Below, one piece after another: positions 22,317-55,624 of a stretch of 64,000 bases of DNA (position 1 is its first letter; each line of letters begins with the position of its first letter). The notes beneath the pieces are model-generated. The model was given only the letters and a program-made list of their open reading frames with translations. It was not told the DNA's origin and searched no databases. This stretch comes from Ureibacillus acetophenoni (GTDB lineage Bacteria > Bacillota > Bacilli > Bacillales_A > Planococcaceae). The stretch spans positions 62,001 through 126,000 of the forward strand of contig NZ_OBQC01000010.1 of NCBI RefSeq assembly GCF_900220965.1, given 5' to 3'. The translations under genes and the position numbers were made by a program.

Positions 22317-22356
22317 TGAAAGCATTGGATTCAGGGGATTCAATGCTTTTTTATTA
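22317..22356 (+). terminator. Terminator after the sarcosine-oxidase-like gene
   Basis: AAAGCATTG and CAATGCTTTT arms with an inner GGATTC/GATT pairing, followed by TTTTTTA. It abuts the start of the 51-bp repeat array. Confidence 0.8.
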
Positions 22357-22836
22357 GTTATAAGGATTTATGTGACAAGAAATCGTGAAACTCTGGGAAA
22401 GTGTCACGCAAAATCGAATTGCATGACAAAAAAATGGGGAATTCCGGGAAAGTGTCACGCAAAGTTGAATTGCATGACAAAAAAATGGGGAATTCCGGGA
22501 AAGTGTCACGCAAAATCGAATTGCATGACAAAAAAATGGGGAATTCCGGGAAAGTGTCACGCAAAATCGAATTGCATGACAAAAAAATGGGGAATTCCGG
22601 GAAAGTGTCACGCAAAGTTGAATTGCATGACAAAAAAATGGGGAATTCCGGGAAAGTGTCACGCAAAGTTGAATTGCATGACAAAAAAATGGGGAATTCC
22701 GGGAAAGTGTCACGCAAAGTTGAATTGCATGACAAGAAATGAAGAATCTCCGTAAAAGTGTCACGCAAAATCAAATTGCGTGACAAGAAACAGAAAATCC
22801 CCAAAAAGTTGTCACGCAAAAAGAAGAAACTCCGGT
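22351..22836. repeat. 51-bp tandem array of a 27-bp dyad (TGTCA-N17-TGACA)
   Basis: Nine copies of TGTCACGCAAA begin at 22402 and then exactly every 51 bp to 22810. The first eight complete a 27-bp imperfect dyad ending TTGC(A/G)TGACA, and a right half-dyad precedes them at 22373. The 24-bp spacer contains the palindrome GGAATTCC in most copies. Because 51 is divisible by three, long ORFs appear on both strands (CHAKLNCMTKKWGIP-type repeats). None has a ribosome binding site, so I treat them as artefacts. Confidence 0.95.
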
Positions 22837-22840
22837 AAAG

Positions 22841-23165
22841 TGTCCAGAGAAGAATGGTGAAACCCCTTATCGAGGACAGATTTTTCGATTTTCAAGAATT
22901 AATGTCCACGAGAACGTTTGTCGAGGACAAAATTTTCGATTTTTAGGATTTAGTGTCCGCAGGAACGTTTGTCGAGGACAAAATTTTCGATTTTTAAGAA
23001 TTTAATGTCCACGAAAACGTTTGTCGAGGACAAAATTTTCGATTTTCAAGATTTACTGTCCACGAGACGACTTGTCGAGGACAGATTTTACGATTTTCCT
23101 GAATTAGTGTCCACGAGACAGCTCGTCGAGGACACTATTTTTATTTTTCTAGTTTTATGTCCTTG
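22841..23165. repeat. 51-52 bp tandem array of a 27-bp dyad (TGTCC-N17-GGACA)
   Basis: TGTCCACGAGA...TCGAGGACA dyads of 27 bp begin at 22903, 22954, 23006, 23057 and 23108, with degenerate members at 22841 and 23158. The 24-25 bp spacer is AAATTTTCGATTTT plus a variable tail. The array follows directly on the previous one but has unrelated sequence. It ends about 55 bp before the DUF2441 gene. Confidence 0.93.
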
Positions 23166-23220
23166 AGAATCCTTTATTTGGTAAAATCATAGAAACAAAT
23201 AAAAGGGGTGACCGCCATAT

Positions 23221-23808
23221 ATGAACGAGCACATTTTCTATCACGTTGTTACTAGAAAAAAAATGAACGTCGGCCAGATCATTCACTTCGATCAGGATCA
23301 AAAGAATACACTATATCGCTTCTTTTTCGAAAATGAACAACGCAATTCCAAGGGTGAAGATTTTATTCAGATTCTATACGGGAATCACACAGAGGACGGC
23401 TTGCACCTGAACAAAGAAGATTCCGACGTAGCCCAAAAATACATAAGTCAAACCATTCGAGCCGCGCGAGAAACGATTGTGGAAATGGTTAGGCTGCAAG
23501 AGTTTCCGCAGTATCCTTCACGGTTGTCTTGTTTATACGCAGCCAAAACCTATGAAGATGCATTAAAATGGAAACAAATCTTTGAATCTTACAATCGTAA
23601 AGTATTACAGATTGTAAAACTTCGAGTGGAAGGGCAAACATTTCTTGGAGATGGCAACCTTCTCCCGAAAGAAGATGGAGTACCATTCTCTCAGAAAATT
23701 GAGCAGGCGCGGGAGTATTGGAAGGGCAACATAAAAAACGAACTTCCCGAAGTGTTAATCAATGGAACGATTGAAGTTATTGAGATTATCGATGATTTTT
23801 CACTATAA
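23221..23808 (+). CDS. DUF2441-type protein
   Basis: 195 residues with AAAAGGGGTG before the ATG. The pattern [20 protein letters not shown] at the N-terminus, the central [21 protein letters not shown] and the following beta-strands ([18 protein letters not shown]) fit the DUF2441 family, which is of unknown function. It begins a run of four same-strand genes with short gaps (20, 95 and 41 bp), probably one transcript. Confidence 0.7.
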
Positions 23809-23828
23809 CTAAGCGAGGAGGATTTCCA

Positions 23829-24017
23829 ATGTCCGATCAAGAACTTGAGCGCGAAAGGCTAAAACAAAAAGAACTAAGCAAAAACCCTGGAGGTGCTTTA
23901 AACGATGCAATTGGTCAAGCACATATAGGTTCACCCAGTAGCAGTTGTTTAACAAATATTGGTTCCATCGTGATGATTATCGTATTTATTCTCATAGTAA
24001 AATCTTGCACAGGTTAA
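23829..24017 (+). CDS. Small single-helix membrane protein
   Basis: 62 residues after GCGAGGAGG. A charged N-terminus (ELERERLKQKELSKNPGGALND) precedes one C-terminal transmembrane helix (IGSIVMIIVFILIVK). The RLKQKELSKNPGG pattern recalls the small DUF6366 proteins of bacilli, a tentative assignment from memory. It is in the middle of the DUF2441 gene run. Confidence 0.6.
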   Translation: MSDQELERERLKQKELSKNPGGALNDAIGQAHIGSPSSSCLTNIGSIVMIIVFILIVKSCTG

Positions 24018-24112
24018 TAGACTCCTATGCTAATTTTGTGAAAAAGTGGAACCTATCCCCGAGTTTATCCGTATATTCATTAACTGAAGGTAAATAAAAG
24101 GGGGACTGTCCT

Positions 24113-24676
24113 TTGGAAAAGAAAAAGTTTGTTACGGAACAACATGAAAAAACACGTACGACCTTTCGTACGCTAGGTCCTATAATTCTAGCCGCAGGGG
24201 CTATTTGTATGATTATCGCATTTATTGACTTTTTCACTTACGACCCATTCGACACGGGATTTGGAGCATTCGGGGAAATGGATGGGTTTGGAGGACCGAA
24301 GCTCTTTTGGTTATTTTTTGTAGGGATCCCTCTTCTTTTCATTGGGTTTGTACTAACGAATGCAGGATATGCTGGAGCAATTGCACGATATGGAAGTCGA
24401 GAATATGCGCCAGTTGCAAAGGACACATTTAATTATTTAGCATCTGAAACGACTACCGGGGTAAAAGAAATCACTAAGGCTATTAAAGAAGGAACAGCCC
24501 CAGCCCAAGCACCAGCGAATTCCATCACGTGTCAAAACTGTAACGAGAAAAATCCAAGCGACTCTAAGTTTTGTAAACAGTGCGGCGATCAATTAGCGAA
24601 AACTTGCGCACATTGCGAAAAGGCGAACTCAGCCGACGCCCTATATTGTAATTACTGTGGAAAATCACTAGGGTGA
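24113..24676 (+). CDS. Membrane protein with C-terminal double zinc ribbon
   Basis: 187 residues from a TTG with AAAGGGGGA in front. Two transmembrane helices (LGPIILAAGAICMIIAFIDFF and LFWLFFVGIPLLFIGFVL) are followed by a linker and two zinc ribbons (CQNCNEKNPSDSKFCKQCG and CAHCEKANSADALYCNYCG). Such proteins usually mediate protein contacts at the inner membrane face. Function unknown. Confidence 0.75.
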   Translation: MEKKKFVTEQHEKTRTTFRTLGPIILAAGAICMIIAFIDFFTYDPFDTGFGAFGEMDGFGGPKLFWLFFVGIPLLFIGFVLTNAGYAGAIARYGSREYAPVAKDTFNYLASETTTGVKEITKAIKEGTAPAQAPANSITCQNCNEKNPSDSKFCKQCGDQLAKTCAHCEKANSADALYCNYCGKSLG

Positions 24677-24717
24677 ATAAAGCGAATTGAAATGCCCTAA
24701 AAATTAGGAGGACCCCT

Positions 24718-25137
24718 GTGGGAAAGCCAAAGCACAAAAATAAAACAAAAAACCCTCTCTTCTGGAGAATTTTCCCCTTCATCCTATTTATATTCATCAT
24801 CGGTTTTCTTCTCTTAATCAGTGGCGGATATGATTACTTTGAAGAATGGGGTTGGAATCCCGATATTGTGATTGTAATCCGTTACATTGCTACAATTATT
24901 TGGGCGACCATAACTTTTATTCTCGCGGTATTACTCCTAAAATACTTTATCGGAATTTGTAAGGGCTGGAGAAGTGGGGAAAGATATTCTTCATTACACG
25001 TAGTCATTGAAGTCGCGATGGTCACATTATTTATGCTAGGTCCGAGTATCGCATTATTTTTATTTAGCTTCGTACAAGTCGGCATCATGTTTTTCCCAGA
25101 CGATCCCTACTGGCGAGGTTATTGGGAATTAAAATAA
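24718..25137 (+). CDS. Membrane protein, three predicted helices
   Basis: 139 residues from a GTG 7 nt after TTAGGAGGA. A basic N-terminus (GKPKHKNKTK) is followed by helices at FPFILFIFIIGFLLLISGG, IVIVIRYIATIIWATITFILAVLLL and VVIEVAMVTLFMLGPSIALFLF. No family is recognised. It is the last gene of the DUF2441 run and is followed by a terminator. Confidence 0.65.
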   Translation: MGKPKHKNKTKNPLFWRIFPFILFIFIIGFLLLISGGYDYFEEWGWNPDIVIVIRYIATIIWATITFILAVLLLKYFIGICKGWRSGERYSSLHVVIEVAMVTLFMLGPSIALFLFSFVQVGIMFFPDDPYWRGYWELK

Positions 25138-25146
25138 AATCACGCT

Positions 25147-25195
25147 TAACCTTCTAAGTTGATTGTTGACGAACGGTCCGCTTAGAAGGTTTTTT
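25147..25195 (+). terminator. Terminator after the DUF2441 gene run
   Basis: AACCTTCTAAG/CTTAGAAGGTT perfect 11-bp stem with a 22-nt loop and TTTTTTT after it. Confidence 0.85.
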
Positions 25196-25329
25196 TATTC
25201 GCAGGACGCAATGGTGTGATAAAATTTGCCAATTAACAATAACCTAATTTTAACAAAATGCATTCTGGGGCATGTTGGGGATTACCGAATGAAAGTTAAG
25301 AAAAGCTATCCGAAAGAAAATAAAATGAG

Positions 25330-25368
25330 AAAGCTAGCAACTAATGAATAGCTGCTAGCTTGTTTATT
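25330..25368. terminator. Terminator near the end of the ATP-grasp gene
   Basis: AAGCTAGCAACTA/TAGCTGCTAGCTT stem, 10 nt beyond the stop of the minus-strand ATP-grasp gene. It is nearly the same sequence as the stem at 8834-8858. Confidence 0.75.
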
Positions 25369-25370
25369 TA

Positions 25371-26213
25371 TTATCCTAAATCAATTAACTTTCTAAGCGC
25401 AGTTACATACACATTGACCGATTGATGATAGAGTTCCGGCGAATAGCGGGCAACTCGTTTTTGAGCAACAGACGCGTTCACTTCTAAGACCATTAAGCCT
25501 TTATTCGTTTCGACAATATCGATATTGCCAAAGCGTAAACCAACTGCTTTTCCTGCTTTGATAGCAATTGCGTGCAATTCTTCTTTAAGATGTTCTGGCA
25601 CCTCTACAACTCGTGCACCTTTGGACAAGTTATTTTGTAGATTCTCACCTTTTGTCTTTCCGTAAGACATTAACACTTCGCCATCTAAATAAGTACATCT
25701 GTACTCAATCGGGAAATCGTAGTAAGGGCTTATTGAGATCTCTAAGTTTTCCGATGAAAATTCAGCAATCGCAAACGTTAGGTCGGAATCATCTGCGACA
25801 AAACATATATTTTTCCCGCCACCGCCGTTGTTTTGCTTCACCACAAAAGGAAAGTGATAATGACTTTTCACTTTCGCTAATGTCACTTTTGCATCTTCGT
25901 TGGAGTACTTATAATCCTTAGGTTTCAACAGAAAATGCTCAATGGCAGGCACACCAGCTTCCAATAGATAGTGAAAACACATGGCCTTGTCTTTTGCGAT
26001 AAACGAAGATTGACTACTATTGAGTCCGATGTCATATCCTAATAACTCGTAGCGTTTAGATGGATCGTACGGATTCGTAAATCGCACTATCCAACCATCG
26101 TATAAGAATTCCATAGTTAGCCCTAATTCCGTGGCAGTATCTTGCATGACATTTTTAAACAATTCCTCATCTGATAAAAGATTAAAATCCGGCAACATTA
26201 GCTGATGTGGCAT
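25371..26213 (-). CDS. ATP-grasp (RimK-like) ligase
   Basis: 280 residues with GAGGG 8 nt before the ATG. The central ATP-grasp motifs are present: FPFVVKQNNGGGGKNI (nucleotide-binding Lys and glycine loop), EISISPYYDFPIEYRCTYLDG, and the metal-binding end NIDIVETNKGLMVLEVNASV (Asp, Glu, Asn). The family couples ATP to peptide-like bond formation between a carboxylate and an amine. No acceptor protein or peptide gene lies nearby, so the substrate is unknown. Monocistronic, with a large repeat array upstream. Confidence 0.8.
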   Translation of the reverse strand: MPHQLMLPDFNLLSDEELFKNVMQDTATELGLTMEFLYDGWIVRFTNPYDPSKRYELLGYDIGLNSSQSSFIAKDKAMCFHYLLEAGVPAIEHFLLKPKDYKYSNEDAKVTLAKVKSHYHFPFVVKQNNGGGGKNICFVADDSDLTFAIAEFSSENLEISISPYYDFPIEYRCTYLDGEVLMSYGKTKGENLQNNLSKGARVVEVPEHLKEELHAIAIKAGKAVGLRFGNIDIVETNKGLMVLEVNASVAQKRVARYSPELYHQSVNVYVTALRKLIDLG

Positions 26214-26391
26214 TCAACGGTCCCTCTACCCTCATGTAGATTTTTTTATTTTCAAAAAACTGCTTTTTCTTTGATTCTATCACGTCTTTTTGCAAATACA
26301 ATACACCTTCAGACCCCTTGGGAAAATAATTTTTTGCGGAGATTTCAATTGGACTTTTAAGGGATAGAACAGAGGGGGAAGCTGGTCGGGA

Positions 26392-27303
26392 TGTCGTTGA
26401 TAGGGCCTTCTAAAGGACAAAACAGTGGGGGATTCTGGTTCGGATGTCTTTTATAGGCCATCTAAAGGACAAAATAGAGGGCGATTTTGGTTCGGATGTC
26501 TTTTATAGAGCTTCTAAAGGACAAAACTACGAGGAATCCAGGTTCGAATGTCTTTAATCGGCCATCTAAAGGACAAAATAGAGTGGGATTTTGGTTCAGA
26601 TGTCTTTTATAGAGCTTCTAAAGGACAAAACTGAGAGTAATCCAGGTTCGAATGTCTTTAATCGGCCTTCTAAAGGACAAAATAGAGGAGGATTTTGTTT
26701 CGGATGTCTTTTATAGAGCTTCTAAAGGACAAAACTGTGAGGAATGCAGGTTCATATGTCTTTAATCGGCCATCTAAAGGACAAAATAGAGGGGGATTTT
26801 GGCTCGGATGTCTTTTATAGAGCTTCTAAAGGACAAAACTGTGAGGAATGCAGGTTCATATGTCTTTAATCGGCCATCTAAAGGACAAAATAGAGGGGGA
26901 TTTTGGCTCGGATGTCTTTTATAGAGCTTCTAAAGGACAAAACTGTGAGGAATGCAGGTTCATATGTCTTTAATCGGCCTTCTAAAGGACAAAATAGAGG
27001 GGGATTTTGGCTCGGATGTCTTTTATAGAGCTTCTAAAGGACAAAACTACGAGGAATCCAGGTTCGAATGTCTTTAATCGGCCTTCTAAAGGACAAAATA
27101 GAGGGGGATTTTGTTTCGGATGTCTTTTGTAGAGCTTCTAAAGGACAAAACTGAGAGTAATCCAGGTTCGAATGTCTTTAATCGGCCTTCTAAAGGACAG
27201 AACAAAGGAGATTTCCGGTTCGAATGTCTTTTATCTGCCTTGTAAAGGACAAAACTTAGAATAATCCAAGTCCAAATGTCTTTTATAATCTTAATGAAGC
27301 CCA
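26392..27303. repeat. 52-bp tandem array of a 27-bp dyad, first sequence type
   Basis: About 18 copies of TGTCTTTTATAGAGCTTCTA and close variants ending AAAGGACA, each dyad 27 bp, with a 25-bp spacer. Start points 26445, 26497 and 26549 illustrate the exact 52-bp step, and 26392 to 27277 equals 17 steps. Two dyad types (ATAGAGCTTC and AATCGGCC(A/T)TC) and two spacer types alternate, giving a higher-order 104-bp repeat. The array lies between the divergent ATP-grasp and LysR genes. Confidence 0.95.
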
Positions 27304-27720
27304 TTTATATGAAAAAATCCAACTGAAATGTCTTTCATAAGGGTAATGAAGGACATTTGGAAGAGAAAATCCAATTGAAATGTCTTTCATAGAGGTGATG
27401 AAGGACATTTGGAAGAGAAAATCCATACGAAATGTCTTTCATAAGGATGATGAAGGACATTTGAAAGAGAAAATCCATACGAAATGTCTTTCATAAGGGT
27501 AATGAAGGACATTTGGAAGAGAAAATCCAACTGAAATGTCTTTCATAAGGGTGATGAAGGACATTTGAAAGTGAAAATCAGTCCGAAATGTCTTTCATAA
27601 AGGTAATGAAGGACATTTGGAAGAGAAAATCCATACGAAATGTCCTTCATAAGGATGATGAAAGACATTTGAAAGTGAAAATCCATACGAAATGTCTATC
27701 ACAGGGGTTACGAAGTAAAT
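27304..27720. repeat. 52-bp tandem array of a 27-bp dyad, second sequence type
   Basis: About eight copies of TGTCTTTCATAAGGGTAATG plus AAGGACA, with spacer TTTGGAAGAGAAAATCCA and a variable end, begin at 27329, exactly 52 bp after the last unit of the preceding array, so register is kept although the sequence changes. The final recognisable half-unit is at 27693. From 27720 to 28000 there is no repeat, only AT-rich DNA leading to the LysR promoter. Confidence 0.93.
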
Positions 27721-28039
27721 TTGGAAGTGAAATTCAATCCCAAATAAATGTCCTTCCCAATGCGGATCACATAAAATCCCCGAATAAAATAACTAACAAA
27801 CGCTCATATCTATCTCCCGCACCCAATATATATACTCTGAACTTCATTAACGAACGCCGAAAACATTCCAACCAAATTCATTGAATCCATTCCCAAACAA
27901 CCTTAAAATAAATTCCAATCCAACTCCTTTGCTTTTACCGACATAATTGTGTGATAATTCTATTAAATGAAATAATTGTTAAACATAGATTAATAACGTG
28001 TAAGAGATGAGTGTTTTCACTAAAAGGGGTGGATGTAGT

Positions 28040-28963
28040 ATGGAATTACGACATTTAGAGTACTTTTTAATGGTTAGTAAAGAACTACATTTTACAAAAG
28101 CAGCTGAAAAATTAGGAATCTCACAACCGACTTTAAGTCAACAAATTAAAATGCTAGAAAAAGAAATTGGCTATTCGCTCTTTAACCGAGTTGGCAAGAA
28201 AATCGAGCTGACGAAGGTGGGGGAAATTGTTCAACAAGAAGCACTGAAAATCCAAGGCTCCATCGAAAATATTTCATCCCAGATTTCCGCCTTTTCAAAA
28301 GGGGATCTCGGTGAATTAAAAATCGCTGTGTTACCGGGAGAAATCACGGACCTCGTAGCGACTTTATGTATTGAATTTAACCAGCTTTATCCAAACATCA
28401 AAGTGTCCATCGAAACGACAGATCAAGTAGAAAAGGCAGTGCTCGACAACCGAACGGACTTCGGCATTAGTTTCCAACTAAATCAAAACGACCAACTGCA
28501 AGTAACGAAGTTGTATGAGGAAGAATTTTATCTCATTAGTAATCAAAAAAATGAAGAATCAAAAGTAGCCTTCGCCGAAGTGGTCAAGGAGCCACTAATA
28601 TTATTCCCAAATCAACATCAATGTAGAAAAATCATTAACAAAACGAGCAATGAAATCGGCAAAAAACTAGAGCCGATTGTTGAAACTTCTAGTATAAAAT
28701 CAATCTTAAATCTTGTAAGAAGTGGTGTTGGACGAAGTGTTGTTTCCCGAACATTATTCGAATTTTATGATACGGCAGATCTATATTTTCAACAGATTGA
28801 AAAGCCTACTTTAACTAGGGGAGTTTATCTTGTGAGGAAAAAAGATTGTATTGTAAATTATGCGGCCCGGGAATTTATTAAATTATTAGTCAGTGAGATA
28901 GAGAAGCTACAGTTTCACACAGAGAAAGATGCGATTCATTCATTATATCGTTCTGTATTATAG
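28040..28963 (+). CDS. LysR-family transcriptional regulator
   Basis: 307 residues from the ATG at 28040, which follows AAAAGGGGTGG and gives the standard MELRHLEYFLMV start. The helix-turn-helix is FTKAAEKLGISQPTLSQQIKMLEKEIG. The rest is the two-lobed periplasmic-binding-like effector domain. It is upstream of and in the same direction as a CoA-transferase gene. LysR regulators often act on neighbours, so it may sense a carboxylic acid or its CoA ester (inference). Confidence 0.92.
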   Translation: MELRHLEYFLMVSKELHFTKAAEKLGISQPTLSQQIKMLEKEIGYSLFNRVGKKIELTKVGEIVQQEALKIQGSIENISSQISAFSKGDLGELKIAVLPGEITDLVATLCIEFNQLYPNIKVSIETTDQVEKAVLDNRTDFGISFQLNQNDQLQVTKLYEEEFYLISNQKNEESKVAFAEVVKEPLILFPNQHQCRKIINKTSNEIGKKLEPIVETSSIKSILNLVRSGVGRSVVSRTLFEFYDTADLYFQQIEKPTLTRGVYLVRKKDCIVNYAAREFIKLLVSEIEKLQFHTEKDAIHSLYRSVL

Positions 28964-29068
28964 GTTTTATCTATCATTATCATAGAAATGACCTAATAGA
29001 CATTCCAAGAACTACTCTATACAATAAATATAGGACAACTGAGAATCGGCACGCATTGGGGATTGCTC

Positions 29069-29096
29069 TTTGGCAATAATATTTAGGATTGCCAAA
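29069..29096. promoter_or_regulatory. Inverted repeat upstream of the CoA-transferase gene
   Basis: TTTGGCAAT and ATTGCCAAA, a perfect 9-bp dyad with a 10-bp centre, lie 48 bp before the CoA-transferase start. The right arm contributes TTGCCA, a possible -35 box. The position and symmetry fit a regulator operator, possibly for the adjacent LysR protein. Confidence 0.45.
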
Positions 29097-29143
29097 AGCT
29101 ATATTGTAGATACTAAAAACAAAATAATTCGGGGTGATTGTTA

Positions 29144-30664: not shown

Positions 30665-30680
30665 TTGATTCGACGAGAAG

Positions 30681-30706: not shown

Positions 30707-30711
30707 TTATG

Positions 30712-30755: not shown

Positions 30756-30771
30756 TCGTTGCTTAAATAAT

Positions 30772-32734: not shown

Positions 32735-34150
32735 TATAAAGGACATTAGGGGCGTGATTTAACTGGAGTTTTGTCCATAAGAGGGCTGATAAAAGACATT
32801 AGAGCAGCGATTCACCGAAGTTTTGTCCATTAGAGGGGGGATAAAGGACATTAGAGCAGCGATACACCAAAGTTTTGTCCATTAGAAGGCCTATAAAGGA
32901 CATTAGTGCAGCGATTTCCCGGAGTTTTGTCTATTAGAGGGCTGAAAAAGGACATTAGAGCCTGAATTTATCATAGTTTTGTCCATTAGAAGGCGTATAA
33001 AGGACATTAGAGGAGCGATTCACCCAAGTTTTGTCCATAAGAAGGCGTATAAAGGACATTAGTGCAGCGATACACCAAAGTTTTGTCCATTAGAAGGCCT
33101 ATAAAGGACATTAGAGCAGCGATTTCCCGAAGTTTTGTCCATTAGAAGGCCTATAAAGGACATTAGAGCAGCGATACACCAAAGTTTTGTCCATTAGAAG
33201 GCCTATAAAAGACATTTGAGCAGCGATTTCCCGAAGTTTTGTCCATTAGAAGGCCTATAAAGGACATTAGAGCAGCGATACACCAAAGTTTTGTCCATTA
33301 GAGGGTGTATAAAGGACATTATAGCCAGGATACACCAAAGTTTTGTCCATTAGAAGGCCTATAAAGGACATTAGTGCAGCGATACACCAAAGTTTTGTCC
33401 ATAAGAAGGCGTATAAAGGACATTAGAGCAGCGATACACCAAAGTTTTGTCCATAAGAAGGCCTATAAAAGACATTTGAGCAGCGATACACCGGAGTATT
33501 GTCTATTAGAAGGTGTATAAAGGACATTATAGCCAGGATACACCGAAGTTTTGTCCATAAGAAGGCCTATAAAGGACATTAGAGCAGCGATTCACCGGAG
33601 TTTTGTCCATAAGCAGGCCAATAAAGGACATTAGAGCAGCGATACACCAAAGTTTTGTCCATTATAAGGTGTATAAAGGACATTAGAACAGCGATACACC
33701 AAAGTTTTGTCCATAAGAAGGCCTATAAAAGACATTTGAGCAGCGATTTCCCGGAGTTTTGTCTATTAGAAGGTGTATAAAGGACATTATAGCCAAGATA
33801 CACCAAAGTTTTGTCCATTAGAAGGCCTATAAAGGACATTAGTGCAGCGATACACCAAAGTTTTGTCCATTAGAAGGCGTATAAAGGACATTAGAGCAGC
33901 GATACACCAAAGTTTTGTCCATAAGAAGGCCTATAAAAGACATTTGAGCAGCGATTTCCCGAAGTTTTGTCCATAAGAAGGCCTATAAAGGACATTAGAG
34001 TAGCGATACACCAAAGTTTTGTCCATTATAAGGTGTATAAAGGACATTAGAGCATCGATACACCAAAGTTTTGTCCATAAGAAGGCGTATAAAGGACATT
34101 AGAGCAGCGATACACCGAAGTTTTGTCCATTAGAACCCAGACTTGCCTTC
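32735..34150. repeat. 52-bp tandem array of a 27-bp dyad, 27 copies
   Basis: TGTCCATTAGAAGGCCTATA plus AAGGACA and close variants recur every 52 bp. The first complete copy begins at 32772 and the last TGTCC at 34124, which is exactly 26 steps of 52 bp. The 25-bp spacer is TTAGAGCAGCGATACACCAA plus AGTTT, with a second version containing TTTCCCGAAG. A right half (GGACA) precedes the first copy at 32741. The array fills the divergent gap between the amidase and the spore-coat genes. Confidence 0.96.
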
Positions 34151-40655: not shown

Positions 40656-40656
40656 T

Positions 40657-47882: not shown

Positions 47883-47886
47883 TTTT

Positions 47887-48120: not shown

Positions 48121-48378
48121 ATTAAGGCTAATATTAAGATGAATAACAAAGGTATCGTATCACTGGTTTTTGGTGTTCTTTCAATTGCAACTTCTTTTTT
48201 AGCAGTAGGCTTTATACTTGGGATTGTTGGGCTGATTTTTGGTGTTATTGGGTTAGGACAAATTAACCGTTATAGACAAAGTGGAAAGTTAGAAGCTTTA
48301 GGAGGTATTATTTGTTGTCTATTTGGCATATTCCTCACGATAAAGTCATCCATTTCAATAATGCTATTATTAAGCTAA
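48121..48378 (+). CDS. Small DUF4190-like membrane protein, copy 2, probable ATT start
   Basis: 85 residues from ATT 48121, which is 8 nt after AGGAG, or 79 from ATG 48139, which is 26 nt away. The ATT site is in the same place and frame as in copy 1 at 40410; relative to copy 1 there is a 12-bp insertion between the ATT and the conserved NNKG. The two helices are nearly identical to copy 1 (FVAVGFILGI becomes FLAVGFILGI). It is the second member of a duplicated cassette. Confidence 0.72.
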   Translation: MKANIKMNNKGIVSLVFGVLSIATSFLAVGFILGIVGLIFGVIGLGQINRYRQSGKLEALGGIICCLFGIFLTIKSSISIMLLLS

Positions 48379-48379
48379 A

Positions 48380-48452
48380 CTAAGGCGTTGATCCAAGAGG
48401 ATTCAGCGCCCTTTTTATTGAACTTATTGTACTAACGGGGCAGGTAATGCGA
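48380..48452 (+). repeat. Terminator plus CTAACGGGGCAG boundary element
   Basis: GGCGTTGATCC-AAGA-GGATTCAGCGCC hairpin followed by CTTTTTATTG, then AACTTATTGTACTAACGGGG and CAGGTAATG. It matches the 40657-40730 element closely. Confidence 0.85.
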
Positions 48453-48484
48453 GAAGAATCAAATGAAAAGGGGGAGATTCGGTT

Positions 48485-48733
48485 ATGGAAGAAAATTGGA
48501 ATGGCAAGGGAAAGGTTAACGAAAATAAAATAATGATGAGAGAAGCAGGCTTAATAGTATTAGCAATAATACTTTTTCTTCAATACTTTAAACTAGCTGC
48601 TTACCTGTCAGATAAGTACTTTTTTGACAATCATTTTATGAGTTATCTTGTCTTGATTTTAGGAATTCCATTATCTTACTTTGCTACGAAATATTTAGTG
48701 AAGGTAATTAAAAAAGTAATAAAAATAAAGTAG
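48485..48733 (+). CDS. Small two-helix membrane protein
   Basis: 82 residues after AAAAGGGGGAG. A hydrophilic N-terminus (EENWNGKGKVNENKIM) is followed by helices at EAGLIVLAIILFLQYFKLAAYL and FMSYLVLILGIPLSYFATKYLV and a basic tail. Unknown family. Single gene in the cassette-like region; no clear boundary element follows. Confidence 0.6.
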   Translation: MEENWNGKGKVNENKIMMREAGLIVLAIILFLQYFKLAAYLSDKYFFDNHFMSYLVLILGIPLSYFATKYLVKVIKKVIKIK

Positions 48734-48846
48734 TGAGTATATCAATACACAATAAATGGTTAATAAACGAACGAAGGTTTTAGTACAAGAATGAGGGTAG
48801 CTTAATAAGATTGATAACACCATAATTAATCAAGGGGGAAAGATTT

Positions 48847-49329
48847 TTGGAAAATGAAAAACTTATCCTTTGGGAACCCATTAAAAATAATCCATTCGAG
48901 CGATTTTATAACGTGATGGATTTAAGAACACTGCAATGGAATGGCAATTTCGAATTATCCTTTTTAGATCACCAGAATAATAGGATGTATCATTTCACTT
49001 ATAAGCAAGATGAAGCAAATTTCTATGCAATTCGCCATTTTCGTATGCTTGAAGAATTTTGCTGGACTAATTATGAAACGCTAATAGATTTATAACGAGA
49101 AGAAAGGGCTGCAGCTGGCTTACCGACGTTAACATATAATCCTACTTTTTATAAAGTACAAAATTCTAGATTTCTATCTTGGTATAGAAGGATGGATCCA
49201 TCTTTACCTTCGCCTCAAAACTGCTGTATTGAACATCATTTGTATATTTCTGCAAATTATTTTATTGATGTATTAACCGAACAACAGCCCTTGATTACCG
49301 TATCTTCATTGAAATCTGGTAATGAATAG
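48847..49329 (+). pseudogene. Unknown protein gene interrupted by an in-frame stop
   Basis: The TTG start follows AAGGGGGAA. The first 82 codons (ENEKLILWEPIKNNPFERF to NYETLIDL) end at TAA 49093. The same frame then stays open for 77 codons with typical coding composition (REERAAAGLPTLTYNPTFY to ITVSSLKSGNE) and stops at 49327. One nonsense change would explain this. The rebuilt protein is about 160 residues. A boundary motif follows the second stop. Family not recognised. Confidence 0.65.
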
Positions 49330-49355
49330 ATAACGGGGTAGGGTTAGTTTAACAA
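49330..49355 (+). repeat. CTAACGGGGCAG boundary motif
   Basis: GATAACGGGGTAGGGTTAGT then TTAACAA lies directly after the second stop of the interrupted gene and about 40 bp before the next start. Confidence 0.7.
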
Positions 49356-49395
49356 TGGGATAGGAATTAATGTTAATTTTAAGGGGTGTATACTA

Positions 49396-49746
49396 TTGGT
49401 ATCAACTTTAGATAAAGAATTTATCCGATTAAAAAGAACATCGCAATTTGCCAATCGAGCAAGGAAATTTAAGGTCTACCTGGATAATCAATATATAAAT
49501 GATATAGCAAATGGAGAAGAAATTTCCATACCTGTTAGAGCAGGAAGTCATCAATTACATATAACAATAGATTGGGTTAAGAGTGAAAAATATGAAATAG
49601 AATTAGCTAAAGGAGACAATATAAATTTGTTATGTGGCTCTCCTTTAAAGGGGATAATATTATGGATTCCTTTTGTTGCCTTAATATCGACATTCGTTCC
49701 AAAGTGGTATCTTTTTATCAAAAAAGTTGATTCGGAACCTTTCTAA
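49396..49746 (+). CDS. PEGA-like small protein with C-terminal membrane helix
   Basis: 116 residues from a TTG with TAAGGGGTG upstream. Residues 20-75 (FKVYLDNQYINDIANGEEISIPVRAGSHQLHITID) fit a PEGA-type beta domain, common in surface or envelope proteins. Residues 85-110 (PLKGIILWIPFVALISTFVPKWYLF) are hydrophobic and probably anchor it in the membrane. Function unknown. Confidence 0.65.
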   Translation: MVSTLDKEFIRLKRTSQFANRARKFKVYLDNQYINDIANGEEISIPVRAGSHQLHITIDWVKSEKYEIELAKGDNINLLCGSPLKGIILWIPFVALISTFVPKWYLFIKKVDSEPF

Positions 49747-49779
49747 CGAAATTCTTTTGAATAATAGCCTTCTTCCATT

Positions 49780-49860
49780 AACGAAGGCGTTGATCCAAGA
49801 AGGATTAATTTCCTTTTTTGTTGATCTTATTGTACTAACGGGGCAATTTTGTTGAACAAG
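49780..49860 (+). repeat. Terminator plus CTAACGGGGCAG boundary element
   Basis: GGCGTTGATCC-AAGAA-GGATTAATTTCC with T-run (49786-49820), then TTGATCTTATTGTACTAACG and GGGCAATTTTGTTGAACAAG. Third near-identical copy of the long form. Confidence 0.85.
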
Positions 49861-49918
49861 GAAATGTTCCTAATTTGTCGAATTAGATAAATAAGAGATA
49901 AAAAGGGGGAGCAACAAA

Positions 49919-50395
49919 GTGAATGTGAACGATTTAATAATTTTAAACTTTGAAGAAATTAGACGTAGAAGTATAAAGGTATGGAAAGCAATACCCAGCA
50001 ATATGTTAGATTGGAAACCTGATGAAGATGCAATGACTTGTGCGGAAATGATTAGACATATATTACAAGGTGAATTTCTTTACCATCAAGTTCTAATTGG
50101 AGGTGGAAGCAAGGCACTATCCGATATAACTAATCCATTTGATGGAAAAGAATTTACAACTGTGGATAATGAGATTATCTTTGCCAAACCCTATCGTGAC
50201 GATTTCATAGACTATATCAAAAAGTTAAGTGTAAGTGATTTGGAGAGTGTTGAAATAGACCGTTCCGATGTGGGTTATGTTAGAAAACTTGGGGATATGT
50301 TACTCCGAATTGCTTATCACGAATCTGTTCACACAGGTCAGCTATTAGACTATATGAGGACAATGGGGATTGAACGTCCAAAAATATGGGACTAA
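49919..50395 (+). CDS. DinB-family protein
   Basis: 158 residues from a GTG 10 nt after GGGGGAGC. DinB-fold histidines are in MIRHILQGEFLYHQVLIGG and IAYHESVHTGQLLDYMRTMG. The N-terminal helix (LNFEEIRRRSIKVWKAIPSNMLDWKPDEDAMT) is typical. It is a likely metal-dependent thiol S-transferase or related hydrolase. It shares only the fold with the DinB gene at 40780, so it is not part of a recent duplication. Confidence 0.85.
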   Translation: MNVNDLIILNFEEIRRRSIKVWKAIPSNMLDWKPDEDAMTCAEMIRHILQGEFLYHQVLIGGGSKALSDITNPFDGKEFTTVDNEIIFAKPYRDDFIDYIKKLSVSDLESVEIDRSDVGYVRKLGDMLLRIAYHESVHTGQLLDYMRTMGIERPKIWD

Positions 50396-50399
50396 TTTT

Positions 50400-50478
50400 T
50401 TATTGAACTAACGGGGGCGTTAATCCAAGAAGGATTAATGCTTTTTTTATTGAAGTTTAATAACGGTACGAATGAGTA
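50400..50478 (+). repeat. Boundary element (CTAACGGGGGCGTTAATCC form)
   Basis: TTGAACTAACGGGGGCGTTA then ATCC-AAGAA-GGATTAATGC and TTTTTTTATTG (50402-50450), followed by a second degenerate AATAACGG motif. Here the motif and the terminator stem are fused in the opposite order to the long form. Confidence 0.8.
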
Positions 50479-50516
50479 AGATATTTTACTACAAAGGGAT
50501 TACTAGGGGGGATTGA

Positions 50517-51047
50517 ATGTCCACTATAAACAGTAATACAAAAATTTATATTCGGACTGGAAGATTAGATGATGCGGAAGCTGTTTTAGCCGTACAGAAT
50601 TCAGTTATATCCGAAGGTGAATACTTAATAACTGTTACGGAAGAGTTTAATAAAACACCTGCTCAACAAAGGGAATGGATAAAAAAGCTAATAGAAAATG
50701 ATAGAGAAACGTTAATTGTAGCTGAAGCGAACGGTGAACTTGTTGGTTGGATCGTCTTTCTTTGCCAAAATAGACTTAGATTAGCCCACACCGGTTCCTT
50801 TGGAATGATGATATTAAAAAACTACAGAGGTATGGGGATTGGAAAAATGCTATTGAAGGCTTTATTAGAATGGGCAGAAAGAAATCCTTTAATTGAGAAA
50901 GTATCTCTTGGAGTTTTCTCAACAAATCATAGGGCGATTTCTTTATATAAAAGTATGGGGTTTGTAGAGGAAGGTCGTAAAATAAAAGAAATTAAGTTAA
51001 ATGAAAATGAATACGTAGACGACATTCTTATGTATAAATGGGTTTAA
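50517..51047 (+). CDS. GNAT-family N-acetyltransferase
   Basis: 176 residues after AGGGGGGATTGA. The acetyl-CoA loop is LKNYRGMGIGKMLLKALLEW (R-G-M-G-I-G), followed by VSLGVFSTNHRAISLYKSMGFVEEGRK, typical of the RimI/PhiN-like group. It transfers acetyl to an amine, with substrate unknown. Stand-alone cassette-type gene. Confidence 0.9.
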   Translation: MSTINSNTKIYIRTGRLDDAEAVLAVQNSVISEGEYLITVTEEFNKTPAQQREWIKKLIENDRETLIVAEANGELVGWIVFLCQNRLRLAHTGSFGMMILKNYRGMGIGKMLLKALLEWAERNPLIEKVSLGVFSTNHRAISLYKSMGFVEEGRKIKEIKLNENEYVDDILMYKWV

Positions 51048-51228
51048 CTTTGTAAGATCCGCAGAAACTATTAAAATGCTTGTCAAAAACATCATCCTGT
51101 AATTCCGGAGAACTAGTCTAAATACACTATCTTCAGAGATTAAGTAAATAATCCCATTGTTCATTCTTCTTTTTTATATCTATAATTATTTTATAATTTT
51201 GAACGGCTAGATATAAAGGAGTTTAGGG

Positions 51229-51516
51229 ATGGACTACACAATAGTTGGGCTATTGCTCATTGCTTTTCTAATTGGAGGCGTAATTTATACTGGAATAAAG
51301 AAGATGGTCCCCGAGTTTCATAAGGAATTATTCTTTCTTCTAGTTATGATTGTTGTAAATATATTTACTGGTTTACTTGCATTTTTTATGGGGGCAATCG
51401 CGACTCAGACAGGGGGCGCAGCAGGATTTTGGTTAATTTTCTTAGCCGTAGAAGGAATTCCGTTTTTACTTTTCCTTCTTAGTGTGTACTTACTTTATCG
51501 CAAGGTAAGTAGATAA
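51229..51516 (+). CDS. Small three-helix membrane protein
   Basis: 95 residues after ATAAAGGAG. Helices at YTIVGLLLIAFLIGGVIYTG, LFFLLVMIVVNIFTGLLAFFMG and AAGFWLIFLAVEGIPFLLFLLSVYLLY, with a basic C-terminus. No family recognised. It is the last + strand gene of the cassette-like region and is followed by a boundary hairpin. Confidence 0.65.
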   Translation: MDYTIVGLLLIAFLIGGVIYTGIKKMVPEFHKELFFLLVMIVVNIFTGLLAFFMGAIATQTGGAAGFWLIFLAVEGIPFLLFLLSVYLLYRKVSR

Positions 51517-51525
51517 TCGATAGAT

Positions 51526-51572
51526 CGACCGGGGCATTAATTCAAGAAGGATTAATGTCTCTTTTTATTGAA
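51526..51572 (+). repeat. Boundary terminator element
   Basis: ACCGGGGCATTAATTCAAGA then AGGATTAATGTC and TCTTTTTATTG: the same hairpin family (GGCATTAAT/ATTAATGTC), preceded by a degenerate GACCGGGGC. Confidence 0.7.
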
Positions 51573-51637
51573 GTATTAAATGACTTAGTTAAAAGAAGAA
51601 GGGTAGTCGATTTATTCGAATACTCTTCTTGATTAAC

Positions 51638-51871
51638 CTAAATCAACATAAAACTTTGAATAGATACATAGAGTGCAAATGCAAATACGACGATTAATAA
51701 CCAACCCATTATCTTTCTTCCTTTTTGCATTTCTTGGATTCCCGTCACCAACATAGTTAAACCTAAAAATAGCATCATATATGCTTGATATCTGAAGTTT
51801 TGAGTAATTAATCCATAACCGGCTAATGCCAATGTTAGAATCGAAAATATAACCCGTAAAGTCATTAACAT
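51638..51871 (-). CDS. DUF3953-type small membrane protein
   Basis: 77 residues from the ATG at 51871, 9 nt after AAGGTGG. Three helices (LRVIFSILTLALAGYGLI, YQAYMMLFLGLTMLVTGIQ and IMGWLLIVVFAFALYVSIQSFML) match the DUF3953 pattern seen in Bacillus. Function unknown. It is on the minus strand, so it marks the end of the same-direction gene run. Confidence 0.72.
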   Translation of the reverse strand: MLMTLRVIFSILTLALAGYGLITQNFRYQAYMMLFLGLTMLVTGIQEMQKGRKIMGWLLIVVFAFALYVSIQSFMLI

Positions 51872-51968
51872 GTTTTCTACCACCTTCAACTAGATTTCCA
51901 GCTCACTAGTGTAATTTATTTCATTTAATAGTATAGCATTCTAGATTAATAAGAAGAGAGGGTTTCCA

Positions 51969-52433
51969 ATGGAAAAAGAAATAAACTTTAGATTGGCTAC
52001 TAGAAATGATTTAGAACAGATTGTTGCCATGCTTGCAGATGATGTACTCGGAAGTAAACGTGAGCGTTACGGGTTGCCGCTTCCTACAAGTTACATAAAG
52101 GCATTTAAAGCAATCTCAGCTGATCCGAATAACGAGTTAGTTGTAGCAGATGATGGCAATGAAGTGATTGGCGTTCTACAAATTACCTTTACACCTTATC
52201 TAACACATCAAGGTGGATGGCGTGCGACAATCGAGGGAGTAAGAACATCTGCTTCTTCAAGAGGAAAGGGTGTCGGAACGAAACTAATAAACTACGCCAT
52301 TCAACGCGCCGAAGAACGTGGTTGTCACTTAGTACAACTAACAACAGACAAACAAAGACCTGATGCCATAAGATTTTATGAAAAGCTAGGCTTTCAAGCG
52401 ACACACGAGGGGATGAAGCTGAAGCTTAAGTAG
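51969..52433 (+). CDS. GNAT-family N-acetyltransferase
   Basis: 154 residues after AAGAGAGGG. The acetyl-CoA motif is SASSRGKGVGTKLINYAIQRAEERG, followed by LVQLTTDKQRPDAIRFYEKLGF, a common form among aminoglycoside/RimI-like acetyltransferases. The next gene, a lipoprotein, begins 9 bp after it, with its ribosome binding site (TAGGAGG) overlapping the stop, so the two form an operon. Confidence 0.9.
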   Translation: MEKEINFRLATRNDLEQIVAMLADDVLGSKRERYGLPLPTSYIKAFKAISADPNNELVVADDGNEVIGVLQITFTPYLTHQGGWRATIEGVRTSASSRGKGVGTKLINYAIQRAEERGCHLVQLTTDKQRPDAIRFYEKLGFQATHEGMKLKLK

Positions 52434-52442
52434 GAGGAAAAA

Positions 52443-52913
52443 ATGAAGAAGAGAAATGTTTGTTTAATTTTTTTTGTGATTTTACTCGGCACACTATTTG
52501 GCTGTTCGGCGAATAAAGAAAGCTTTGATGATAGAAATATTAGTTTCTATATTGTTGAAAAAGAAGCAACTGCAGAGTATGAATCTTACAGATTCGAAAT
52601 CGCAAACAATACTGGATATGAGCTAACTCACTTAATCTTTAATTTAAGTTATCCAATTAAAGAGTTAAATGGTTCAAAAAGTAATCCGTACGAGATAGAA
52701 GGAAAACCAGTTAACGCAGATCTACACGTCAATCTGAAATCTGGCGAGACAATGACCTTTTTAATTGATGCGCCTATAAAAGAGGTATTTGGGGATACGG
52801 ATTTACTAGATATTGAATATCCAAATATTAAGTTAAGAGGATATTATAAAGATGGAAAAGAGGAAATCCCCTTTGGAATATCTGGTGGATTGAGCGTATT
52901 AATTGCGGAATAA
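52443..52913 (+). CDS. Lipoprotein of unknown function
   Basis: 156 residues. Signal peptide MKKRNVCLIFFVILLGTLFGC with lipobox LFGC (Cys21). The mature part is a beta-sandwich-like domain (ISFYIVEKEATAEYESYRFEIANNTGYELTHLIFNL, and VNADLHVNLKSGETMTFLID), similar in type to FxLYD-like domains of surface proteins. Cotranscribed with the GNAT gene. Function unknown. Confidence 0.75.
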   Translation: MKKRNVCLIFFVILLGTLFGCSANKESFDDRNISFYIVEKEATAEYESYRFEIANNTGYELTHLIFNLSYPIKELNGSKSNPYEIEGKPVNADLHVNLKSGETMTFLIDAPIKEVFGDTDLLDIEYPNIKLRGYYKDGKEEIPFGISGGLSVLIAE

Positions 52914-52919
52914 AATGTG

Positions 52920-52955
52920 AAGACACTGATCTAATAGGGTCGGTGTTTTTTTATT
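52920..52955 (+). terminator. Terminator after the GNAT-lipoprotein operon
   Basis: CACTGATC/GGTCGGTG stem (with G-T pairs) followed by TTTTTTTA. Confidence 0.8.
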
Positions 52956-52974
52956 GTTCAAATTCCCATATACA

Positions 52975-53375
52975 TCCGCAAGTTGCTCATAAACCCCAGG
53001 AAGTCGCTCATAAGTAATAAAAAGTCGCTCGTAACCCCCAAGAAGTTGCTCATAAGTAATAAAAAGTCGCTCATAAACCCCAAGAAGACGCTCATAAATG
53101 AAAAGTTGCTCGTAATCCTCAGAAAGTCGCTCATAAGTGAAAAGTTGCTCATAAACCGCATGAAGTCGCTCATAAGTGAAGAAAAGTTGCTCGTAATCCT
53201 CAAGAAGTTGCTCATAAGCTATGAAAAGTTGCTCATAAACCACATGAAGTCGCTCATAAGTGAAGAAAAGTTGCTCGTAATCCTCAAGAAGTTGCTCGTA
53301 ATCCTCAGAAAGTTGCTCATAAGAGATTAAAAGTCGCCCGTAACCCCCAAAAAATCGTCCACAAGCCACAACAAA
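52975..53375. repeat. 21-bp tandem array of GT(T/C)GCTC(A/G)TAA
   Basis: The core GT(T/C)GCTC(A/G)TAA begins at 52982, 53003, 53024, 53045, 53066 and 53087, then 53105, 53126, 53144, 53165, 53186, 53207, 53228 and on to about 53370. The step is 21 bp, with occasional 18-bp steps. The 10-11 bp after each core varies. The array fills the gap between two + strand genes. Reading frames across it (on both strands) have no ribosome binding site and are artefacts of the 3n repeat length. Confidence 0.94.
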
Positions 53376-53455
53376 CTTCAAGCTTAATTTCACCTAGCTT
53401 ACGATTCTATTGTGCTACTATTGATAAGTAGTACCTTTATAGAGGAGACATCGGA

Positions 53456-54805
53456 ATGACTGTAAGGAAAAATGAAAAATTAATTATATTAGCTGTGGCA
53501 TTGGGTGTTATCCTAAATCCTTTAAATACGACGATGATTACAGTCGCGTTGCCAGCTATTCAAAAGGATTTCGAATTGAGCGCAACAAATATTTCATGGT
53601 TAATTGCTTCCTACTTTATTATCAGTGCAATCTTTACACCGTTAATAGGGAAATTAAGTGATATATATGGAAGGAAATTAATCTTTTTAATAGGTCTTGG
53701 ACTAGTCGTGGTGTCTTCGGTTTTAGCACCGCTATCACCGAATTTGCCTATGCTCCTTGCAATGCGCGGAATTCAAGCAATTGGGACATCAGCACTCTTC
53801 CCAGCTGGTGTGGGGATTGTCCGTAATACCATTCAACACAATCAAAATCGCGTCATCGGGACATTAGCTGTATTTGCAACAACCTCGGCTGCATTCGGAC
53901 CTACGATAGGTGGAGTGCTCGTCCAGTTCGGTGGATGGCCGATTATCTTTTACGTAAACTTGCCGATTCTTGCCATCGGAATAGTTTTAACGTTGATGTT
54001 TATTCCGAAAGATGAGAAAAACAAGGCTACATCTTATAAGTTAGATATCATTGGAATTTTATTATTTAGCTTATTTATTACTTGTTGGATGATCTTTTTA
54101 CTTGGACTCGAAAACGGCGTTCAATTTGTAACATTAATACTTGCCATTGGATTAACGGTTGTTTTCTACATGTATGAGAAAAGAAGAGAAGAACCGTTTA
54201 TTGATGTGAATTTCTTCAGAAAAAACTTAAACATTACTGTTATTTATGGGCAGTACATATTATCAACAGTCATCTTCTTTGCCGTGCTGCTAAGTTTCCC
54301 GACATTCATTCAAATCGTGTTAGGGGAAAGCTCTCAAATGGCGGGAATCGTGATGCTGTCACTTTCTATTTTCGCAATGATTATGACACCGGTCGCTACG
54401 AGATGGATGGAGCGGGCAGGATTTCGAATTCCGCTTTTGGCCAGTGTTCTAGTTGGATTAGTAGGAGTGATCTTATTATTCACCGTGAAGGATGATTCTT
54501 TATTAATCTGGGTGGGAGTCGTTCTTGCGGTTACAGGGATTAGTAACGGAATACAAAATATTGGTCTGCAAAACTTGTTGTACACTTACATCGCGCCAGA
54601 GGAAAGTGGAATTGCATCAGGTCTCTTGATGACATCGCGCTTTATTGGAAATATTTTAGCTTCAAGCATTTACGGTGTGGCCTTCGCTACAGGTATGAGC
54701 GTAGCAAATATGAGTACAATGGCGATAGGGTTACTGGTTGTTGCAGTTGTACTGGTGCCAGGGATGATTTTTGTTACAGTGAAAGAGAAGACGAGTGAAA
54801 GTTGA
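53456..54805 (+). CDS. MFS drug-export-type transporter (DHA2-like)
   Basis: 449 residues after AGAGGAGAC. The first helices contain ILNPLNTTMITVALPAIQKDF (the motif D1-like LNTTMITVALP of DHA2 exporters) and motif A GKLSDIYGRKLIF. Motif C-like glycine-rich GPTIGGVLVQFGGW follows. About 12-14 helices are predicted; the length is a little short for 14-helix QacA types. A proton-driven efflux pump is likely; substrate unknown. No regulator gene is adjacent. Confidence 0.88.
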   Translation: MTVRKNEKLIILAVALGVILNPLNTTMITVALPAIQKDFELSATNISWLIASYFIISAIFTPLIGKLSDIYGRKLIFLIGLGLVVVSSVLAPLSPNLPMLLAMRGIQAIGTSALFPAGVGIVRNTIQHNQNRVIGTLAVFATTSAAFGPTIGGVLVQFGGWPIIFYVNLPILAIGIVLTLMFIPKDEKNKATSYKLDIIGILLFSLFITCWMIFLLGLENGVQFVTLILAIGLTVVFYMYEKRREEPFIDVNFFRKNLNITVIYGQYILSTVIFFAVLLSFPTFIQIVLGESSQMAGIVMLSLSIFAMIMTPVATRWMERAGFRIPLLASVLVGLVGVILLFTVKDDSLLIWVGVVLAVTGISNGIQNIGLQNLLYTYIAPEESGIASGLLMTSRFIGNILASSIYGVAFATGMSVANMSTMAIGLLVVAVVLVPGMIFVTVKEKTSES

Positions 54806-54860
54806 GTAATTGGCCAATTACTGAGTTATTGGAAACAATACAAGGTCAAATAAAATAATT

Positions 54861-55624
54861 AAAGGGTTTTGTTCAGTAGCGGTTGCATAATGGACAAAAC
54901 CCTTTTAAATTCTCCGGATAATGTCCATTAACACAAGTCTATTGGACAATACGTCATCATTTTCGAAGTGAAATGTCCATAATCACTGCTCTAATGGACA
55001 AAACGGCATCAATTTCGGAGCGAAATGTCCATAATAACAGGTCTAATGGACAAAACAGCTTCAAATTCCAAGCGAACTGTCCATAATCACTGCTCTAATG
55101 GACAAAACAGCTTCAAATTCCAAGCGATCTGTCCATAATAACATGTCTAATGGACAAAACAGCATCGAATTCCAAGCGAACTGTCCATAATAACGGGTCT
55201 AATGGACAAAACAGCTTCAAATTTAGAGTGAACTGTCCATAATCACTGCTCTAATGGACACAACAGCTTCAAATTCCAAGTGAACTGTCCATAATCACTG
55301 CTCTAATGGACAAAACGGCATCAAATTCCGAGTGAACTGTCCATAATCACTGCTCTAATGGACACAACAGCTTCAAATTTCCAGCGAACTGTCCATAATA
55401 ACAGGTCTAATGGACACAACAGCTTCAAATTCCAAGCGAACTGTCCATAATCACTGCTCTAATGGACAAAACGGCATCAAATTCCGGGTGAACTGTCCAT
55501 AAACACTTCTCTAATGGACAAAACGGATTCAAATTCCGAGCGAACTGTCCATAAACACCGCTCTAATGGACAAAAGCCATTCATTTACCAAGCCTACTGT
55601 CCATAATCCCCAACTATAGGTTCG
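54861..55624. repeat. 52-bp tandem array of a 27-bp dyad (TGTCCATAATC...TAATGGACA)
   Basis: The first unit (54870-54896) is also the stem of the MFS gene terminator (AAAGGGTTTTGT/ACAAAACCCTTT). TGTCC then begins at 54922 and the last at 55598, exactly 13 steps of 52 bp, so there are 15 units. Dyads are 27 bp (TGTCCATAATCACTGCTCTA plus ATGGACA), and the spacer is AAACAGCTTCAAATTCCAAG plus CGAAC with variants. Several GGACA arms read GGACACAAC. Confidence 0.95.

Follow-up and report, generated by a model that had tools for sequence, protein, structure and literature searches.

Paired arms and mostly replication-following linkers in TGTC-footed 52-nt intergenic satellites of Bacillaceae

The stretch of DNA considered here, called the window below, comprises 64,000 nucleotides of Ureibacillus acetophenoni (contig NZ_OBQC01000010.1, positions 62,001 to 126,000 of the forward strand). 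It holds six non-coding, intergenic arrays of a short dyad, and these arrays belong to the intergenic satellites of constant 52-nt size known from Bacillaceae. The unit has 10-bp arms with TGTC/GACA feet, a free 7-bp centre and a linker of 24-25 bases. An exact-pattern scan for TGTC-N19-GACA found 75 dyads inside the six arrays and one outside; every other spacer of 8-39 bases gave at most one exact dyad inside any array. Tandem Repeats Finder (TRF) recovers the same six arrays, with the same periods, as the dyad scan, and the two together give the following features:

22395..22819, + strand: array A, 51-bp steps, TGTCACGCAA-N7-TTGCATGACA; eight exact dyads at 22402-22785, every step 51
22859..23169, - strand: array B, 51-52-bp steps, arms of TGTCCACGAG type; five exact dyads at 22903-23134, steps 51/52/51/51
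26371..27283, + strand: array C, 52-bp steps, alternation of two unit types; 16 exact dyads at 26445-27251, step 52
27274..27745, + strand: array D, 52-bp steps, TGTCTTTCAT-N7-ATGAAGGACA; seven exact dyads at 27329-27667, step 52
32767..34135, no strand assigned: array E, 52-bp steps, with a final half-unit; 26 exact dyads at 32772-34098, step 52
54866..55608, no strand assigned: array F, 52-bp steps, with degenerate first units and a half-unit as the last; 13 exact dyads at 54922-55572, step 52

A sequence-only reading of the window had described these arrays as unrelated sequences that share one 27-bp dyad with TGTC/GACA feet. The 75 exact dyads and their steps of 51-52 bear out the shared geometry. 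C and D are in phase and make up a single chain of 25 units. The arm words differ between arrays, and the word unrelated is too strong for the linkers, which in the arrays of this genome are akin, by eye, within the 51-step group and within the 52-step group. An array similar to D lies elsewhere in the genome (L165:1270-1463).

The whole genome (3.98 Mb) contains 454 TGTCY-N17-RGACA sites, as against 6 for the reversed pattern. TRF on 776 kb of its sequence, the window among it, gave 69 merged arrays, of which 28 have a period of 52 (17 arrays) or 51 (11); the same 776 kb holds 19 dyad arrays with many different arm words, and several 51-52-bp arrays of this genome are without the TGTC dyad, as are many published families. 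A chance origin of the dyads in the window and the genome is excluded. Within the genus, where this genome was compared with 24 others and the reversed pattern served as control, site counts are high in 11 of the 25 genomes (494 in the complete chromosome G002, 454 here, then 309, 181, 101, 95, 79, 49, 46, 41 and 35); the remaining 14 have 2-15 sites vs 3-10 for the controls. Thirty-six genomes outside the genus have 0-21 sites vs 1-23, the top ratios resting on small counts, and in one of them (G027, 18 sites vs 6) the listed sites are scattered. In a sample of the class, a tandem dyad pair occurs in 11 of 398 genomes, one of which (G356, with one match) looks chance-like, and the reversed control gives one match in one genome. 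A scan of public genomes returned at least 116 stretches; the 80 listed loci, taken in as named loci, are mostly from Bacillaceae; others include Trichococcus and a record that bears the name Sedimentibacter. The arrays are thus patchy within the genus and present in scattered Bacillaceae. Viral contigs gave 12 pattern matches of scattered, chance-like spacing, and plasmids no copy of the first 734 bases of array E.

Step length hardly varies from array to array, or between genera and families, and is not randomly distributed. With 47-57 allowed, dyad-to-dyad steps in the 80 listed loci are 51 (62 cases), 52 (211) and 53 (6), with 48, 50, 55 and 57 together accounting for 5. Dyad length 27 occurs 404 times in these loci and any other length of 15-54 at most 8 times, but since the loci were fetched by the 27-bp TGTC pattern, the steps alone are independent evidence, not the dyad length or the feet. 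Two loci, L065 (a different, GC-rich repeat) and L080 (chance), are counted in these tallies, as well as in the pairing of consensuses, the unoriented wobble, gap orientation and flanking gene clusters described below; they were dropped from polarity, oriented wobble and other later analyses.

The arms are free in sequence and yet complementary. In 91 array consensuses, with the feet fixed by the search pattern, arm positions 6-9 vary between arrays; they pair with their own partners in 70-81% of cases and with the partners from other arrays in 28-45%. Position 10 is paired in 56% vs 30%, and pairing at positions 11-13 and in the outer flanks exceeds chance little or not at all (41% vs 32% at the first outer position). 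A shuffle test (500 shuffles) on 89 of 96 representatives, 88 of them distinct, gave 86.9% paired cells vs 68.2% shuffled and 31-46% slid, 182 cells changed on both sides vs 70 +/- 6, and a between-array covariation of 0.469 vs 0.146; none of the 500 shuffles reached any of the three values. Published consensus families, which were not chosen by TGTC, allow a test that is in part independent: around a 7-base centre, 8 or more of the 10 arm positions pair in 12 of 27 families, even centres of 4-18 give 0-1 of 27, and odd centres of 5 and 9 score alike through their common axis. Judged from these consensus sequences, a fold-back core is common, not universal, among the published families.

Within arrays, the arms change less than the linkers. 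The mean pairwise difference in 98 arrays is 0.130 for arms, 0.209 for linkers and 0.230 for the centre (0.044 for the feet, a value biased by the search pattern), and arm pairing is 0.74 in the least diverged quartile and 0.67 in the most diverged. In chains that allowed 50-54 only, the step is 51-52 in 878 of 899 cases. Linker identity between different named genomes is 0.324 vs 0.291 shuffled, and 0.456 within G002. When mismatched arm pairs are oriented by the linker, G.T exceeds A.C by 156:58 in G002, 49:22 in this genome and 148:100 in the named loci.

The linkers also carry a direction. Orientation was at first taken from an AAGCG centre; the purine skew of the linker is the stronger measure, chosen later. 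On the leading strand this skew is 0.51 in G002 (25 arrays), 0.23 in this genome (19) and 0.30 in the named loci (74), as against 0.046 (n = 318), 0.037 (n = 229) and 0.046 (n = 138) in the respective ordinary gaps, none of which exceeds 0.4. By chromosomal position, with replichore boundaries set by hand, 27 of 28 arrays of G002 point with replication, and all seven that lie between head-on genes are purine-rich on the leading strand. By local GC skew, 14 of 18 arrays in this genome and 62 of 74 named loci do so, which brings the pooled count to 103 of 120; this count leaves out arrays with a local GC skew of 0.03 or less (1 of 19 here, 12 of 86 named) and includes partly related arrays, which are not independent events. 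Ordinary gaps often agree with local skew in sign (239 of 318 in G002, 159 of 229 here, 97 of 138 named), so that agreement in sign by itself is weaker evidence where the genome is incomplete. G327 is a complete chromosome from another family, and 12 of its 13 classified arrays follow the skew; the 13 come from the first ~3.41 Mb of 4.70 Mb and were classified by one listed linker each, two of them, the exception included, showing a single listed unit, and nine arrays were left out (eight that by eye match both strands or have symmetric ends, one near-neutral). In the window, the linkers of array A (skew 0.56) and of the C and D chain (0.30) are purine-rich on the + strand and follow local skew. 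Where linkers are clearly polar, the purine-rich strand is mostly the leading strand, which has the same sequence as the lagging-strand template.

Array gaps differ from array-free gaps in the orientation of their flanking genes, as given by home-made gene calls: 27 of 77 array gaps are convergent, 41 same-direction and 9 divergent, vs 57, 220 and 100 of 377 array-free gaps. The arrays are probably not terminators, as the sequence-only reading had also held: of 79 arrays, 24 have a terminator-like site no further than 200 bp away on the upstream side and 15 on the downstream side, and the units, in the sequences read, contain no T-run. Rfam gave two weak matches in the window, neither on an array. 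Comparison by eye of the gap between mutS and mutL in 20 genomes gives a view of turnover. In U. acetophenoni this gap holds 51-step dyads, and in G010 a different 52-step array in which the contig ends; nine genomes (G014, G012, G005, G023, G004, G007, G020, G024 and G006) have short direct repeats of several words, mostly ~20-21 bp, and in eight (G001, G016, G003, G017, G011, G013, G019 and G002) the gap is short, 58-132 bp. In G002 an array lies after mutL, and in G018 the contig ends in mutS. These differing contents indicate that the gap has been colonised repeatedly. The MutS protein of G002 (L220:6213-8939) has an in-frame extra ~140 bp near its C-terminus relative to that of U. acetophenoni; this is not a dyad array.

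Candidate agents were sought among known genes. The Y1/RAYT transposase domain (PF01797; RAYT, REP-associated tyrosine transposase; REP, repetitive extragenic palindrome) is found in 28 of 40 genomes and in none of the array-rich G002, G062, G010 (= G087), G007, G013 and G004. The hairpin nuclease SbcD, whose loss might have explained why some species retain arrays, is present in all 39 genomes, whether array-rich or array-poor (two of which, G062 and G173, look like one genome). This rules out both the Y1 transposase and a loss of SbcD as general causes. A gene family travelling with the arrays was likewise rejected, as the largest cluster among 465 flanking open reading frames (ORFs) spans 8 loci, the ABC-transporter ATPase of the window among them, and other clusters at most 5. 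Synteny at the coenzyme A-transferase locus is not conserved in the seven genomes compared.

A companion class of ~21-bp direct repeats is present in the same genome, with two members in the window:

52980..53322, + strand: companion array, ~21-bp direct repeats, word TTGCTCATAA, no dyad
62884..62979, + strand: short array of the 21-bp class, AGTTGCTCATAA, found by TRF

Beyond the window, the class occurs at L166:101-1189 and L175:12976-14754. Its words include TTGCTCATAA, TTACTTGCGA and TGGCGAATA, with further steps of 18, 20 and 39-42, and it agrees with local skew in 19 of 23 arrays, the skews being small. Two of its words, TGTCCGATAA and TGTCTAGATT, resemble single arms of the dyad class; a link between the two classes is a suggestion only.

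Several records merit separate mention. Dyads and linkers are nearly identical between L094:1470-1548, from a record named Sedimentibacter sp. SX930, and L105:2741-2819, from Trichococcus flocculiformis, a likeness that reflects either recent transfer or a mislabelled record. The record Chryseobacterium sp. ISL-80 (L028) has 495 sites; its name may be wrong, as similar ISL-series records are Bacillus. In the record Bordetella petrii (GC 68.5%), L065:2508-7747 carries a different palindrome, TGTCTGACACCCTGCGGGAGTCAGACA, which occurs in pairs, and the genome has 483 pattern matches vs 4. Contigs end inside dyad arrays at L209 (G010) and at the start of L157 (U. acetophenoni), which means that draft assemblies under-count the arrays or break there. 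In the window, a 519-aa ORF at 1528-3087 matches the McrB model weakly (E 1.9e-07, well short of the cut-off) and perhaps belongs to a restriction-like operon.

We tentatively favour, at a little short of an even chance, a fold-back satellite whose working or amplifying form is single-stranded, located either on the lagging-strand template or in a transcript of the same direction. The observations that lead to this explanation are the arms that are free in sequence yet complementary, the smaller divergence of arms than of linkers with pairing nearly kept, a linker direction that follows replication even between the head-on genes of G002, a step held at 51-52 although linkers are near shuffled identity, and the turnover at mutS-mutL. 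The unit would act as a hairpin in single-stranded DNA or in RNA made in the same direction, and something of fixed reach would read the feet at a fixed spacing, which would preserve step and arm complementarity as words and linkers drift. Arrays would grow and be erased by slippage or unequal exchange, and copies would spread to other gaps, giving the fast turnover. No trans factor was identified for the arrays. A narrower version, in which fixed-pitch hairpins of single-stranded DNA on the lagging-strand template are read by a cell factor, with structure and direction selected and sequence free, is somewhat unlikely; were it true, the reading factor would set the constant 52-nt length, as a ruler.

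A number of results weigh against the fold-back explanation. In the shuffle test, 75 of 500 shuffles reached the 7 pairs seen with a double change, and 4 of 500 the 31 further pair types. Among the published 52-nt families, several differ in their feet (TGGC/GCCA) or lack a clear dyad. Pairing declines weakly with divergence (rho -0.23, p 0.02), and covariation within arrays is weak, with 725 of 1434 cells paired vs 693 +/- 9 shuffled and, for distinct units, 490 of 1017 vs 467 +/- 9, within the shuffle range; this argues that pairing is at most loosely kept. Unoriented mismatches (G.T 340, A.C 321) show no strand, and strand-biased C-to-T change could also yield the G.T excess seen after orientation. 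Orientation by the AAGCG centre agrees with skew by 21:3 in G002, and by 6:6 in this genome and 29:17 in the named loci. Of the 10 pooled head-on gaps, only 8 follow replication. Polarity in the window itself is weak or mixed: array B is weakly purine-rich on the - strand (-0.20), opposite to local GC skew, and arrays E (0.03) and F (0.11 on the + strand) are near neutral. For the RNA form, promoter scores upstream of 79 arrays show no excess over the reverse control (8.25 vs 8.31).

The dimeric protein that the sequence-only reading had proposed corresponds to double-strand sites for a nucleoid-type dimer, with the 10-bp arm as half-site and a step of about five turns that sets the sites on one DNA face for polymerisation. 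We consider this unlikely, although the fixed feet, the sharp 10-bp arm boundary, the free centre and the nearly fixed step all suit it, as do the strand symmetry of unoriented mismatches and the weak covariation. Base pairing explains the free yet matched positions 6-9 more simply than one protein specificity, from which several arm words per genome are not expected either; the 21-bp class, moreover, also steps by 18 and 39, out of phase with 21. A plain symmetric site accounts for feet and step, but not for the matched variable arms or the replication-polar linkers, both of which a one-strand hairpin explains; what stands of the proposal is the shared geometry, the fixed step and a nature probably other than that of terminators. 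A specific RNA device, with transcription of the arrays in the replication direction yielding hairpin RNAs that serve as sponge or small RNA, is the RNA half of the favoured explanation taken alone, and we hold it to be quite improbable. RNA-seq reads are reported to fall on the 52-nt repeats of B. coagulans (PMC8625621), hairpins joined by purine-rich linkers suit RNA, and G.T exceeds A.C on the linker-oriented strand; the flat promoter scores and the absence of Rfam matches on arrays speak against it, as does the direction in all seven head-on gaps of G002, where the replication direction is kept despite opposing genes and read-through from neighbours cannot make the polarity. The least probable of these accounts assigns the arrays no cellular function: minisatellites grown by slippage, their arm symmetry arising from template-switch correction of quasi-palindromes and their polarity from strand-biased mutation, with survival where harmless. 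Fast turnover, patchy presence, placement mostly away from promoters (divergent in 9 of 77 gaps vs 100 of 377), weak covariation and the slight loss of pairing with divergence are all in line with it. It is harder to reconcile with a step and feet that stay constant while linkers are nearly saturated, with arms that change less than linkers, and with a purine skew 6-11 times that of ordinary gaps. Shared feet, a sequence-free paired stem and a direction that follows replication are testable and narrow the possible functions; they also let such arrays be found by structure rather than by sequence.

Arrays of this kind, and the idea of a nucleoid protein, are already in print. Tandem repeats of 51-53 and 20-21 nt, constant in size and variable in sequence, have been described in Bacillus and other Firmicutes (Subirana and Messeguer, 2021; PMC8161180), following an earlier survey by the same authors (PMC6749651). 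A nucleoid protein polymerising on DNA, or small RNAs, were proposed as explanations; the paper reports an absence of sequence conservation and leaves the fixed 52-nt size unexplained, and the words "palindrom" and "hairpin" are absent from its main text. The arrays described here share with those repeats the lengths, several same-length families per genome, a non-coding, intergenic and patchy occurrence and variable array length, and one B. coagulans consensus given there, which begins TGTCCTTCAT...ATGAAaGACA, is the same unit as that of the window dyad arrays. Shared feet, paired arms, a free centre, replication polarity and a genus outside its Bacillus set distinguish the present arrays. 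A search of open-licence papers found nothing on fold-back arms or replication polarity of 52-nt repeats, and the unit anatomy and the polarity seem new.

Among other known systems, REP/RAYT palindromes (GTAG-/CGTC-tagged; PMC3733652) are likewise short intergenic palindromes in many copies. Unlike them, the present elements are strictly tandem, keep a fixed step and differ in arm words from array to array, their feet are TGTC/GACA rather than one GTAG/CGTC-tagged sequence, and the six array-rich genomes named above have no Y1 transposase. The partly palindromic ~27-bp core and spacers of similar length recall arrays of clustered regularly interspaced short palindromic repeats (CRISPR); here, however, the linkers are repeated copies that recur within arrays, not unique spacers, and a genome holds tens of arrays. 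The SpoIIIE recognition sequences (SRS), which orient SpoIIIE/FtsK through the motif GAGAAGGG, are purine-rich, leading-strand-biased single octamers. The linkers of the dyad arrays are similarly purine-rich and leading-strand-biased, and GAGAAGGG occurs in those of one G002 array; unlike the single octamers of SRS, the polarity here sits in the linkers of hairpin arrays.

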